This document shows, one piece after another, positions 52,976 to 57,838 of a stretch of 64,000 nt of DNA. This stretch comes from Candidatus Altimarinota bacterium (GTDB lineage Bacteria > Patescibacteriota > Gracilibacteria > BD1-5 > UBA6164): assembly GCA_028698305.1 (NCBI GenBank), contig JAQVDN010000001.1, forward strand, positions 186,001 through 250,000, read 5' to 3'. Within the stretch, counting starts at the first letter, position 1. Every line of letters begins with the position of its first letter. Made by a program: the position numbers and the translations under genes. Under the pieces are notes generated by a model. That model ran no database searches and was not told the origin of the DNA. It saw nothing but the letters and a program-made list of their open reading frames with translations.

Positions 52976-53150
52976 AAATTATATATTTTAGTAATATTTT
53001 TTTTATTTTAAACTTTTAATTTTTTTTGTAAAGTTTGCTTTAAAAAAAACTTGTGAGACAAGATGATTATTGGATGAAAATAAAAGAAATTATTAATAAA
53101 TATATTAAGAGCAATCTATATAAATAATCAAGTAAAAAATATCAATTTTA
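52976..53150. other. AT-rich intergenic region
   Basis: No gene or repeat is recognised between the nucleotidylyltransferase start and the promoter of the decamer-repeat unit. Confidence 0.4.
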
Positions 53151-53178
53151 TTGATTAAATAAACTATAAATTTATAAT
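53151..53178 (+). promoter_or_regulatory. Promoter of the decamer-repeat unit
   Basis: TTGATT (53151-53156) and TATAAT (53173-53178) are 16 bp apart. Transcription should begin near 53185, 21 bases before the ATG. Confidence 0.65.
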
Positions 53179-53205
53179 AAAAATATTAATTACTAGTTTA
53201 TTATT

Positions 53206-53343
53206 ATGCTACAACAAGCTACAACAAGCTACAACAAGCTACAACAAGCTACAACAAGCTACAACAAGCTACAACAAGCTACAACAAGCTTAGAAAATGA
53301 TATAGACTGTCTGAAAAAAAACAGGTATTTATTTGTGAGTTAA
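53206..53343 (+). CDS. Short repetitive peptide encoded by a decamer tandem repeat
   Basis: A 45-codon open frame beginning MLQQATTSYNK, in which the ten-residue unit LQQATTSYNK is read about 2.7 times, followed by a unique end LENDIDCLKKNRYLFVS. Because the 10-bp DNA unit is not a multiple of three, three copies give one full protein period, and gain or loss of one copy shifts the frame of the unique end. It lies between a good promoter and a strong terminator and may be translated. A non-coding role for the RNA or DNA is equally possible. Confidence 0.4.
   Translation: MLQQATTSYNKLQQATTSYNKLQQATTSLENDIDCLKKNRYLFVS
53211..53290 (+). repeat. Tandem repeat, eight perfect copies of ACAACAAGCT
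   Basis: Eight identical 10-bp units without one substitution, preceded by ATGCT, which matches the unit's last bases. Perfect identity implies recent expansion or active maintenance. It is not a CRISPR: there are no spacers. Confidence 0.97.
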
Positions 53344-53371
53344 AACTCATGAGTAAATATCTGTTTTTTTG
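53316..53371 (+). terminator. Terminator of the decamer-repeat unit
   Basis: AACAGGTATTTA...GAGTT pairs with AACTC...TAAATATCTGTT and a T run follows. The stop codon lies in the loop. Confidence 0.75.
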
Positions 53372-53483
53372 GCTCATTAAAATAAACAGGAACTTTTGCA
53401 AGATATTTATTTAAAAAATAAATATTGTTAATTGTGTTAAAAAATCTCCTAAAAAACGAAAATAATATATAATATATAAAAAT

Positions 53484-55244
53484 ATGAAAATAAACAAAAC
53501 CAAAGCTTTCACCCTAGTAGAATTAATAGTAGTAATAACAATACTAGCCATACTAGCAACAATAGCCTTTATAAGCCTAAATGGATATGCATCAAATTCA
53601 AGAGATAGTAAGAGAAAGAGCGATATAGCAAGTATGAGAAAGGTACTAGAACTAAGCTACCTAAAAAATAATCATTACCCAGAACCAGATAATGCAACTA
53701 ATATAACATATAGTTGAGGTTTAGCCTGGTATATCTGAGAATTTGGAGAAGAAGTAAGAAGGAAGGTAGAGAGAATAAATCCAGTACCAAAAGACCCATT
53801 ATTAGATATATACTATGCATATTGAGTAACAAATAATAGACAAGAATATGAACTATGAGCAATGCTAGAGAATGCAAATAATGTATCAATGAATATAATA
53901 AACCAAGCAAATGCAAATAGTGAATGATATACAACATATATAAGCTGAAATTATAATAAGAAGATAATATCAATAAGAGACTGAAATACGATAAGAATAC
54001 TATGAGTACCAACATTGATAACAACGAATCCAAGTATAACAGAGTTACAAACAGTTACTGACCAAGAAAGAAGAAGCTTGTTTTCAATAAATAATAAAAC
54101 AAACCTACCAGGAAAAGTAATAGAGAAGATAAATACATGAATACTATGAGAATGATTTATAGTAACAGCAGAAGAAATCTATGAAAACTGAACAATACAA
54201 AACACAGATGTAAATGGATGAGAAACTAGTTTATTATTGTATGAATGAACAATACAAGATTTAAACAATGAAACAACAAAAGAGAAGGTATGAGAGAATA
54301 TAATATCATACTATATGTGAACAGAAAGTACAATATGAAATCTATATCAAGAGATGACATGATTGGATGGAATAACAGTACTAGATGCACTGATAAGTAA
54401 TAAACAATGATGATTGAATAATAAGGATGTAGCATTGAGTGAAAGTAGTAATGATGGATGAACATCAAGTTGAGGATGAGTTGTACCTACATATACTTGT
54501 TCAGCACAACCAAATTATACAAATGCAAATTTTGTAGAATGAACTCCAACAATAGTAAATGAAGCTTGGCAAAATACAAATAATATAAATCCATGTTATT
54601 ATGAGTGTATAAATTGATATACTTGAAGTGAGTGTAATGTAGCTCCATTAGTATGATGGAGAGCATTAGATATAAATTGTGATATAGAAGATATAACAAT
54701 ATGAACACAAACTTGGGCATGATGTAATTCAACATTATGAACAGGTATAGAATATAGTATAGATCAAAATTGTTATAATTATGTATGATGAACAACAACA
54801 TGATGTAATAGACCAAGTAATGAGAAAGAAAATGTATATAATGCTACATATTGAGTAAATAATATATGGTGAAAACTATATACTTGGGCAAATTCTCCTA
54901 GTGCATGTCCAAGTTGACGGCATGTACCAACAGATGGAGAATGGACTACATTAACTAATTATATTATTGCACAAAATTGATGAAATACTGCTATATGATG
55001 GGCCGCACAATCTTGAAAAAATGAAACAAATAATTTAGTTAAAGCTTTAAAAATACCTTTAGCAGGTTACCGTAATACTGTTGGTTCTACGTTCGGCAAT
55101 CGTGGTTACGTTACGCACTTATGGTCGAGTACGCCTAATAGTACTAATGCGTATGGCAGGAACTTGTATTGGAATGGTTCTACAGTTGGTCGTAGCAACA
55201 ATAGTCAGGCGTTCGGTTTTTCTGTTAGATGTATAAAGGATTAA
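53484..55244 (+). CDS. DGR target: prepilin-like protein with diversified C-type-lectin-like domain
   Basis: A 586-residue surface protein. MKINKTKA precedes FTLVELIVVITILAILATIA, a type IV prepilin processing site and helix. A beta-rich middle and a Ser/Gly linker (near 320) follow, then a Cys-rich stretch (residues about 340-400). The final domain (about 400-586) contains IGTQTWAG, RHVPTDGEWTTL, LWSSTPNS and GFSVRCIKD, the Fib_succ_major/FGE-type C-lectin fold. Residues 525-584 are the variable repeat of the retroelement. TGA codes many glycines. The accessory, Avd, template and RT genes lie directly downstream. Display on a pilus tip for host or prey binding is inferred. Confidence 0.93.
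55057..55236 (+). repeat. Variable repeat (VR) of the diversity-generating retroelement
   Basis: 180 bases align without gaps to the template repeat at 56301-56480. Twenty positions differ, and at every one the template has A (11 to G, 8 to T, 1 to C). Most fall in Asn AAC/AAT codons of the template, which become Tyr, Gly, Val, His, Ser or Phe. It ends eight bases before the stop of the target gene, the standard DGR location. Confidence 0.97.
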
Positions 55245-55400
55245 GTGACACCCAAAGAGCGATAGCGATTTGTTGGTGGAAGTTATGCAGAACATAGTTT
55301 TGTTCCAAGAGTGTAACGATTGGTTTACAAAACTAATGTGGAGCAATTCGTCTCTTTGCTCTCTTTGTCTCTTTTTTGCTTCTTTTTCTAAAAGAAGATA
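55245..55400 (+). promoter_or_regulatory. Structured, GC-richer region downstream of VR
   Basis: Nested inverted repeats: CAAAGAG (55253-55259) with CTCTTTG (55352-55358), enclosing TAGTTTTGT (55295-55303) with ACAAAACTA (55327-55335). DGRs often need a hairpin or cruciform just beyond VR for efficient retrohoming; this could be that element or a 3' UTR structure. Confidence 0.45.
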
Positions 55401-55406
55401 CATTTA

Positions 55407-55450
55407 TTACAAAAAATGAAAGTGATTTTATACACTTTCATTTTTTGTAA
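55407..55450 (+). terminator. Terminator after the DGR target
   Basis: TTACAAAAAATGAAAGTG pairs with CACTTTCATTTTTTGTAA. The long stem is perfect. Confidence 0.75.
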
Positions 55451-55470
55451 TTTAAAAATAAAATATATAT

Positions 55471-55812
55471 ATGAAAAAAGATTCTTATGATAAACTAAAT
55501 GATGGTTTTGTTAATCTATATGAACAGTGAATTTTTATAAGATGTTATGAAAAAAGTGCAATTTTATTAGCTGAAATAACTTGATATAAATTGTATCCAA
55601 ATATAGACAAAAAAACTTGATTTATATTTTTGGAGCTATGATTTCCAAAAGACTATAAACAAAAGATTTTAACTAATCTAGAAAATAGATGAAATTTTAT
55701 AAGAATAATTGATAAAATTTGAAATATAAGTGAAACATTTTGAAATACAAGATTAGAAATAGAAGAATCTAAATTAAAAGAAATAAAAAATAATTTAATA
55801 AAATTTAATTAA
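55471..55812 (+). CDS. MutS-domain-I-like DGR accessory protein
   Basis: A 113-residue protein. FIRCYEKSAILLAEITGYKLYPN, then GFIFLELGFPKDYKQKILTNLENRGNFIRIID follows the order of MutS domain I, the mismatch-recognition module (FYELYGEDA..., GFP..., L...GYKVAI.EQ). MutS-like (MSL) small proteins are known as DGR accessory factors. The Phe-x-Glu mismatch wedge is not clearly kept (IRCYEKS). It lies two bases upstream of avd and probably works with RT and Avd. Assignment comes from pattern and position. Confidence 0.6.
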
Positions 55813-55813
55813 A

Positions 55814-56164
55814 ATGGTCTTATATGATAATTTGCCAGTATATAAAGAAAGTTATGATTTACTGATTCAAATATTTGAAGTAGTAAAAAAATTTGAAAAA
55901 CAATACAAATATACAATTTGAGATAAAATAAAAAATGAAATAGTAGATTTAATAACAAATATATATAGAGCAAATTCTAGTTTTGAAACTAGAATTTTAA
56001 ATATAAAAAGAGCTCGTGAACAAATAGAAATTTTAAAACTATATTTTAGGCTTTCAAGAGATTTAAAAATATTATCAATAAATAAATTTGCTGATTTAGC
56101 ATTAAAAATTGAAAATTTATCAAAGCAATTATATTCTTGGGAAAAGAGTTGTATAAAAAATTAA
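55814..56164 (+). CDS. avd: Accessory variability determinant (Avd), four-helix bundle
   Basis: A 116-residue all-helical protein rich in Lys and Ile. NLPVYKESYDLLIQIFEVVKKF, then LITNIYRANSSFETR and REQIEILKLYFRLSRDLKIL match the bAvd/23S-intervening-sequence four-helix family. Avd pentamers bind the DGR reverse transcriptase and template RNA and are needed for mutagenic cDNA synthesis. It lies directly before the template repeat, its usual place. Confidence 0.88.
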
Positions 56165-56572
56165 AATATGGCGAGATTTTATAAAATCATAGTATTTTAT
56201 AAAGAGTGCCTATTAATCCTAGTAATCCACTGGAAAATTTTCTAGTAGTAAAAGATATTATATTTTGTTAAATATAATACAAAGTTAGAGATTACCATAG
56301 CTTTAGCAGGTAACCGTAATACTGATGGTTCTACGTTCAACAATCGTGGTAACAATACGAACTTATGGTCAAGTACGCCTAATAGTACTAATGCGTATAA
56401 CAGGAACTTGAATTGGAATAATTCTACAGTTAATCGTAACAACAATAGTCAGGCGAACGGTTTTTCTGTTAGATATATAAGGCTTAAAATAATATTAACT
56501 TAGTATTTTATAAATACTCTACTTAAATCCAGATTTTTTCTGGATTTTTTTATAATCTAAAATTAATAAACA
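56165..56572 (+). ncRNA. DGR template RNA region
   Basis: The avd-RT gap contains the template repeat. The 14-base TAGTATTTTATAAA occurs on both sides (56190-56203 and 56501-56514), and a palindrome GATTTTATAAAATC lies at about 56175-56188. A hairpin AAATCCAGA-TTTTT-TCTGGATTT with T tail (56526-56552) ends it. The region is transcribed with avd or as its own RNA and provides template and primer. Confidence 0.7.
56301..56480 (+). repeat. Template repeat (TR) of the diversity-generating retroelement
   Basis: The 180-base donor of the VR. Its codons are built for diversification: clustered AAC/AAT codons at the positions that vary, while fixed residues avoid adenine at the first two positions (Arg CGT, Thr ACG, Ala GCG). 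It has no start codon in frame and is not itself translated. Confidence 0.96.
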
Positions 56573-57745
56573 ATGAATAATAAACTACTTTATAATCTAT
56601 TTCAAGCCTACTACGAAGCAAGAAAGAATAAAAGAAATACACTAAATCAACTAGATTTCGAATTTAATCTAGAAGAAAATATTATAAAACTATATGATGA
56701 ACTTATCTCTTGAACTTATAAAGTTTGAAAAAGTATTTATTTTATACAAACTCATCCAGTAAAAAGAGAGATTTTTGCTTGAAATTTTAGAGATAGGATA
56801 GTTCATCATCTAATTTATGATTATATATTACCTATATTTGAAAAAGACTTTATATATGATAGTTACTCTTGTAGAAAATGAAAATGAACTAGTTTTTGAG
56901 TCGAAAGAATAGAAAGATTTATAAGAAGTTGTAGTGAAAACTACACAGAAAATTGCTATATATTAAAACTAGATATAAGCTGATATTTTATGAGTATAGA
57001 TAAAGATATACTTTTTGAAAAAATAGAAAATATATTGAGTAATAAAAAAGATTTATTAAAAATAGACTATAATTTTATTCTATATCTTATAAAAGAAATC
57101 ATATATAATGATCCAACAAAAAATAGTATTTTCAAATGAAAAAGAAGTGATTACATATGACTTCCAAAAAATAAGAGTCTATTTTTTGCAAAACAAAATT
57201 CTTGACTTCCGATTTGAAACTTAACAAGTCAACTCTTTTCAAATATTTATCTAAGTGATTTTGATAAATATATAAAAGAAGAATTAAAGATAAAATATTA
57301 TGGTAGATATGTAGATGATTTTGTAATTATTCATAAAGATAAAAACTATTTAAAAGAAGTTATCAAGAAAATAAATAAATACTTAAAATATAATTTACTT
57401 TTAAATCTTCATCCAAAAAAGATTTACTTGCAAGATTATACTAAGTGAGTTTTATTTTTATGAGTATTTATAAAACCATATAGAACATATATTAGAAAAA
57501 GAAGTATATGATATTTTTATAAGAAAATTGAAGTATTAAATAAAAGACTAGAAAACAATGATTTAAAAATAGATAGTAAACTTAAACAAGATTTTTTAAG
57601 TATAATAAATTCATATCTTTGATTTTTAAAACATCATAAAAGCTACAAAAAAAGAAAGCATTTACTTTTAAATCAAGTAAGTGCTTCTTTTTGGAATTAT
57701 TTTTTTATATCTAATAATTATACATTGGTTAAAAAAAAGAAATAA
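56573..57745 (+). CDS. DGR reverse transcriptase
   Basis: A 390-residue reverse transcriptase of the DGR clade. Fingers motifs include [19 protein letters not shown] and ILKLDISGYFMSID (first catalytic Asp). [20 protein letters not shown] near 206-225 is the I/LGxxxSQ motif that marks DGR enzymes, and YVDD is at 246-249. [18 protein letters not shown] gives motifs D and E. It lacks the maturase or nuclease domains of group II introns. It copies TR RNA into cDNA with errors opposite adenines. Confidence 0.96.
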
Positions 57746-57838
57746 TAATTATTTAAACAAAATCTATAATTTTCTAGATTTTAATAAAATATAGTTATAT
57801 TTGAAACTAAATAATAAATTTTAAAATGTTATTTTCTC

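Follow-up and report, generated by a model that had tools for sequence, protein, structure and literature searches.

The 64,000-nt stretch of Candidatus Altimarinota bacterium DNA analysed here (contig JAQVDN010000001.1, positions 186,001 to 250,000; hereafter the window) carries a complete diversity-generating retroelement (DGR) on its + strand at 53484-57745. Read and translated with genetic code table 25 (UGA=Gly), it comprises a target gene ending in the variable repeat (VR), the gene of a MutS-domain-I-like accessory protein (MSL), avd, the template repeat (TR) and a reverse transcriptase (RT) gene. Very probably this is a functional or recently functional chromosomal DGR, in which a leader-TR RNA is copied by RT-Avd and the VR of a prepilin-type target is rewritten. 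The first-pass annotation, made from the letters of the sequence, had described a complete DGR with intact parts in canonical order on one strand of a table-25 genome, a prepilin-type target and a VR rewritten from the TR. All of this holds: every part lies on the + strand at its expected place, the frames of RT, avd, MSL and target are uninterrupted when read with table 25, and the evidence for the target, the rewriting and the genetic code is given below.

The VR (55053-55236, +), which forms the last codons of the target, and the 184-nt TR (56297-56480, +) align without gaps over 184 nt with 21 differences. Twenty of these fall on the 64 adenines of the TR (12 A>G, 7 A>T and 1 A>C; Fisher p = 1.1e-9), mostly at codon positions 1 and 2. 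The sole non-adenine difference sits at the extreme 5' edge of the repeat, and over 180 nt TR and VR show no drift at bases other than adenine. The 3' ends of the two repeats are common save for one difference (56475 A>G), and the boundaries of the IMH and IMH* elements (initiation of mutagenic homing) cannot be set from the sequence alone. A search with the TR of the whole 1.29-Mb assembly (18 contigs, 88% complete) returned exactly two matches, the TR itself and the VR, and no second VR elsewhere in the genome. Furthermore, nearly the same TR protein is present in the window and in the related genomes G033, G066 and G054. Across the 40 positions where all four TRs agree, the VRs differ at 16 of 16 Asn positions versus 1 of the 24 others (p = 2.7e-10), the lone varying non-Asn position being an Asp (GAT) altered at its A. 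Therefore each VR was rewritten independently at template adenines. The VR variation that had been named as a check is thus present across the four genomes and confined to adenine-bearing template codons.

The RT (56573-57745, +; 390 aa) is the product of the single RVT_1 gene of the assembly (Pfam RVT_1 4e-19; PHROG 1423 7.7e-99). Its best match among solved structures is 8ub7 (4.2e-34), which we take to be the enzyme of Bordetella phage BPP-1, followed by a group II RT (1e-10). It carries the DGR hallmark GLPIGNLTSQ (57203-57232, +), whose IGNLTSQ fits the DGR motif (I/V/L)GxxxSQ and is invariant in nine sequences, and the active-site YVDD (57308-57319, +). In a tree of 46 RTs, where long branches leave the deep order unsure, 43 DGR or DGR-like RTs split with full SH-aLRT support from three non-DGR controls (group II, CRISPR-type and retron-like), and the window RT falls among RTs whose loci show an A bias in the TR/VR pair. 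Placement with retron or group II intron RTs, named beforehand as the outcome that would speak against a DGR, was not observed. A search of IMG/VR with the RT confirmed no relatives there.

The target gene (53484-55244, +) encodes 586 aa, with a prepilin-type N-terminal motif (53493-53570, +; Pfam N_methyl 3.8e-7) and a C-terminal FISUMP domain (Pfam Fib_succ_major 1.9e-16, above its cut-off; NCBIfam TIGR02145 5.4e-14), of which the VR is the last third. The VR thus sits at the 3' end of a gene whose product has a C-type-lectin-like domain, and Fib_succ_major is a published DGR target domain (PMC4159848). The genome also encodes inner-membrane T2SSF genes of type IV pilus or type II secretion systems (8 domain hits) and has 15 N_methyl hits. 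Moreover, targets combining prepilin and FISUMP domains recur in G003, G033, G054 and G045, with the FISUMP match of G003 below cut-off, and hence the coupling to a prepilin target is a family trait and not a singularity.

A conserved structured leader RNA with five main helices lies upstream of the TR and abuts it (56168-56302, +). Rfam family RT-7 (RF03028) spans it from end to end (match at 56171-56302), and the helices are the same as in RT-7 and show covariation. The structure was derived from the RT-7 alignment together with a fold, and inserts were taken out by hand from the G003 and G033 rows of the leader alignment. Among 10 related leaders, 22 of 37 pairs show two-sided changes, amounting to 65 such cells versus 24 in shuffles, with 0 of 500 shuffles as high; the signal was destroyed when the pairing partner was slid. 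In the DGR of Pseudomonas phage Cruim01, which has two VRs, an RT-15 RNA is annotated and was detected directly before the TR (L185:4681-4873). Since RT-15 abuts the TR there, the Rfam RT-n families such as RT-7 and RT-15 are probably DGR template leaders. A terminator-like hairpin with a T-run stands between TR and RT (56525-56554, +), one of five found in the region versus 0.7 expected. In G066 (L139) the conserved leader is missing upstream of the TR and the TR/VR pair is clean; this is probably a rearranged or partly lost copy.

The avd gene (55814-56164, +; 116 aa) starts 1 nt past the MSL stop codon, and its product was recognised by Pfam bAvd (1.4e-16, above cut-off) and the PHROG 3206 Avd family (6.6e-19); NCBIfam DivGenRetAVD gave 52.9 bits, below its cut-off of 80. 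The MSL gene (55471-55812, +) encodes 113 aa, and here the first-pass claim of a MutS-like accessory gains its support from the predicted fold, the sequence match being sub-threshold. An AlphaFold2 model with a pLDDT of 83 was compared with solved structures in Foldseek, and the top 50 PDB matches listed were all MutS/MSH proteins, the best at 1.5e-5. A homologue in G003 passes the Pfam MutS_I cut-off with 30.9 bits, and an alignment of 10 MSL relatives has a common G-F / A / GFP core. These results support, at the level of the model, a MutS domain I fold for MSL. In addition, a 649-aa frame in G023 (L040:7193-9139) holds an MSL domain C-terminal to the RT domain in one reading frame, and the same RT-MSL fusion was seen by eye in a 581-aa protein of G073 (L141). 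We found no published report of such fusions, and they support MSL acting with the RT. By analogy with MutS domain I, one might speculate that MSL binds distorted or mismatched nucleic acid.

The use of table 25 by the host is supported by gyrA, whose first half contains 11 TGA codons: aligned against E. coli GyrA, 6 of them fall on Gly, 3 on Ala, 1 on His and 1 on a gap. Furthermore, the RT is intact only if UGA is read as glycine, because both invariant glycines of GLPIGNLTSQ are encoded by TGA. The idea that UGA=Gly has altered template design was rejected: in a template-codon comparison that leaves out loci L031 and L033, the TRs of code-25 loci keep AAY codons. In-frame TGA codons occur within the TRs of G003 and G054 and are unmutated in the VR. 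Judged from these sequences, the recoding appears to be without visible mark on template design.

The DGR occupies a discrete island of about 4.8 kb (approximately 53048-57822) between a sugar nucleotidyltransferase gene and gyrA. In the congeners G001, G002 and G004 (L210, L211 and L213) this gap is 147 bp long without a DGR, and the island can be delimited because the empty-site sequence matches the window left of ~53048 and right of ~57823. There is no recombinase gene inside the island, and in G005 (L212) other genes occupy the site. Near the left end of the island, GCTACAACAA is repeated eight times in tandem without a mismatch (window positions 53208-53290), and a strong terminator-like hairpin with 20 bp comes after this array (53320-53365). 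The closest named relative, the congener Candidatus Gracilibacteria bacterium STD2_250 (G003; JAQUZB010000014; L028), carries its DGR at this chromosomal site too; the right junction coincides, and the gene order is target-MSL-TR-avd-RT. At the nucleotide level the RT is 94.8% identical between the two, gyrA 89%, avd 73% and TR 70%; in the target the match is confined to the first 144 nt, and for MSL there is no proper match. When the window is compared with G033, a member of another genus, the identities are 89% for TR, 93% for the TR-RT spacer, 80% for avd, 76% for MSL and 76% for the RT, so that all of these parts but the RT are nearer to G033 than to STD2_250. The simplest reading of these identities is that a target-accessory-TR module might be exchanged while the RT stays put. 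The set of target, avd, TR and RT recurs in relatives, and a related RT is present in 14 of the 77 genomes from this order and in 29 of the 380 genomes sampled from the phylum. Four single small genomes of the candidate phyla radiation (CPR; G048, G384, G233 and G239) each have at least three DGR-type RT genes or fragments.

On this evidence, we propose that the avd-RT intergenic region would be transcribed as an RNA of ~380 nt made up of the structured leader, the TR and the terminator. The RT with Avd, and probably also MSL, would copy the TR into cDNA with misincorporation opposite template adenines, and the cDNA would replace the VR at the 3' end of the target, the mutable codons of the template being mostly AAY. 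The type IV pilus machinery would probably cleave and assemble the target, a prepilin-type protein, which would then present its hypervariable FISUMP domain outside the cell, where it could plausibly bind other cells or surfaces. Several observations count against this account. The MSL match to MutS_I (PF01624) has an E of 0.022 and 15.4 bits against a cut-off of 20.6, and the leader scores 33.8 bits with RT-7 (E = 2.2e-5) against a gathering score of 116.8. The variable residues are not placeable on a lectin surface because the FISUMP structure model is poor (pLDDT 51). Such DGRs do decay, since the congener G002 (L036, L037) has a disrupted RT in pieces with TAG/TAA stops beside a TR/VR pair that is still adenine-biased. 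The argument for current activity draws on a single-strain assembly of the species. Together with the decaying element of G002, this last point would suit a relic whose VR was rewritten in the past and whose machinery is now inactive. We regard this as unlikely given the open frames of RT, avd, MSL and target, the lack of non-adenine drift over 180 nt and an RT that is closer to its G003 counterpart (94.8%) than is the adjacent gyrA (89%). Far less probable still is RT-independent gene conversion out of silent cassettes, as in pilin antigenic variation. Pilins are classic targets of gene conversion and the present target is of prepilin type, but the differences are adenine-specific, the assembly holds no further copy of the TR as donor, and RT and avd adjoin the TR. 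Finally, an RT of another class (retron, group II intron or DRT defence) beside an incidental repeat can practically be dismissed: generic models do match (group II 1.1e-29, Drt2 8.1e-16, retron 2.2e-15), but all far below curated cut-offs, and the motif GLPIGNLTSQ, the DGR RT match of 4e-34 versus 1e-10 for the best group II RT, and the grouping with RTs of loci with A-biased repeats all argue for a DGR enzyme.

Little is understood of how a DGR distinguishes the VR, as recipient, from the TR, as donor, and of the way in which its cDNA is primed and integrated; the 3' flank of the VR bears on this question. A hairpin with a GATA loop, tandem G-A mismatches and an imperfect stem (55249-55278, +) begins 12 nt after the VR; its fold as DNA has a modest z of -2.3, and the loop fits the GRNA consensus of DGR hairpins (PMC3240598). 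G002 has a homologous hairpin after its VR. An element of ~50 nt with the GATA loop and tandem G-A mismatches stands after the VR in the window (55243-55292) and in G002, whereas in G003 (L028 7701-7759) and G033 (L029 7079-7126) it is part of the TR leader. Beyond the hairpin are four tandem octamers or iterons (55343-55375, +), gcaattcg, tctctttg, tctctttg and tctctttt, with a single c between the second and the third. A long A/T-rich inverted repeat with a 19-bp stem, noted by eye and unscored, lies 3' of them (55406-55451, +). Among related DGRs, tandem repeats of period 8 or 9 (p<=0.05) were found 3' of the VR at 32 of 64 loci, versus 1 of 65 for the 3' side of the TR, 2 of 63 for the 5' side of the VR and 3 of 64 for the 5' side of the TR. 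A position weight matrix (PWM) built from VR flanks, with the consensus ACTATTTG, detected runs of at least two units 3' of the VR at 40 of 70 loci and 3' of the TR at 0 of 70, spaced by 8 nt (59 times) or 9 nt (9 times); as this matrix was trained on VR flanks, the period test is the unbiased one. The iteron-bearing loci span CPR, Bacteroidota, Proteobacteria and others. Among more divergent held-out loci, the strict PWM matched 2 of 23 and a looser motif 3 of 21 versus 0.1 expected, so the signal belongs mainly to the closer RT lineage. Base-pairing of the iterons with a conserved ACAAA of the leader was rejected as inconsistent across loci, and so was the notion that iterons replace hairpins, because simple hairpin scores differ little between loci with and without iterons.

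We found no mention of octamer iterons in open-access papers on DGR cis elements. The novelty of the iterons is provisional, since key subscription papers lay outside this literature search, and we treat them as a candidate new cis element. We tentatively propose, at slightly less than even odds, that they act in cis to mark the recipient repeat, as a signal not described before that would be in use throughout a broad DGR lineage (CPR, Bacteroidota, Proteobacteria). They would direct the RT-Avd(-MSL)-RNA complex, or the priming event, to the repeat that is to be overwritten, either in addition to a hairpin of the BPP-1 type or in its stead. In the window, the GATA-loop hairpin and the octamers together would then mark the VR, and not the TR, as recipient. 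A slightly less likely but serious possibility is that the iterons have no part in homing and instead act as a signal for transcription or RNA stability of the target gene, or arose by slippage. In favour of this, the T-rich units directly follow the stop codon of the target, and a hairpin with a T-run often comes after them. Set against this, they are absent 3' of the TR and 5' of either repeat by both the period test and the PWM, and the period of 8-9 nt is kept though the unit differs between loci (for example TCTACTTG in L108). If the recipient-signal proposal is true, a repeat array that is conserved at recipients only, and in a lineage whose MutS-I domains are at times fused to the RT, would offer a direct handle on VR/TR discrimination.

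The window DGR is of a known kind. DGRs are common in CPR (PMC8144416), from which the first-pass annotation had called them known, and MSL is a known DGR accessory (PMC10053308). The novelty it had claimed for a prepilin target coupled to MSL in a table-25 genome was overstated: MSL and Fib_succ_major targets are published, related RTs occur in the same order, and recoding leaves no visible trace in template design. More interesting than the recoded genome are the iterons on the recipient side, the fusions of RT and MSL and the island with its apparent module exchange. The case is also an example of a DGR that forms a discrete island within a reduced UGA=Gly genome and is directed at a surface protein of pilus type, through which contact with other cells could be made. 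The DGR of Bordetella phage BPP-1 (mtd-VR, avd, TR, brt) resembles that of the window in the order of target-VR, avd, TR and RT, in the adenine-specific TR/VR difference and in the GRNA-loop hairpin after the VR (PMC3240598). The window differs in an RT that is 28% identical, an extra MSL gene, a bacterial prepilin/FISUMP target, an RT-7-like leader 5' of the TR and its octamer iterons; no such iterons were found in BPP-1. DGR clade 2 of Roux et al. 2021, described as limited to Patescibacteria (PMC8144416), is likewise a group of cellular patescibacterial DGRs, a likeness drawn from the description and not a clade assignment; its targets are typically without recognisable domains (PMC8144416), whereas the present target has clear prepilin and FISUMP domains. 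Published DGRs with an MSL accessory (MutS_I, PF01624; PMC10053308) also have a MutS-domain-I-like gene beside avd and RT, and the MSL of the window stands out as divergent, falling below the Pfam cut-off. Its leader has the helices of Rfam RT-7 end to end but scores well short of the family (33.8 vs 116.8 bits), and, like RT-15 of Cruim01, it abuts the TR of a DGR. The DGR of STD2_250 shares the chromosomal site with that of the window and has an RT that is 94-95% identical, while its gene order differs and its target, MSL, TR and avd are much diverged.

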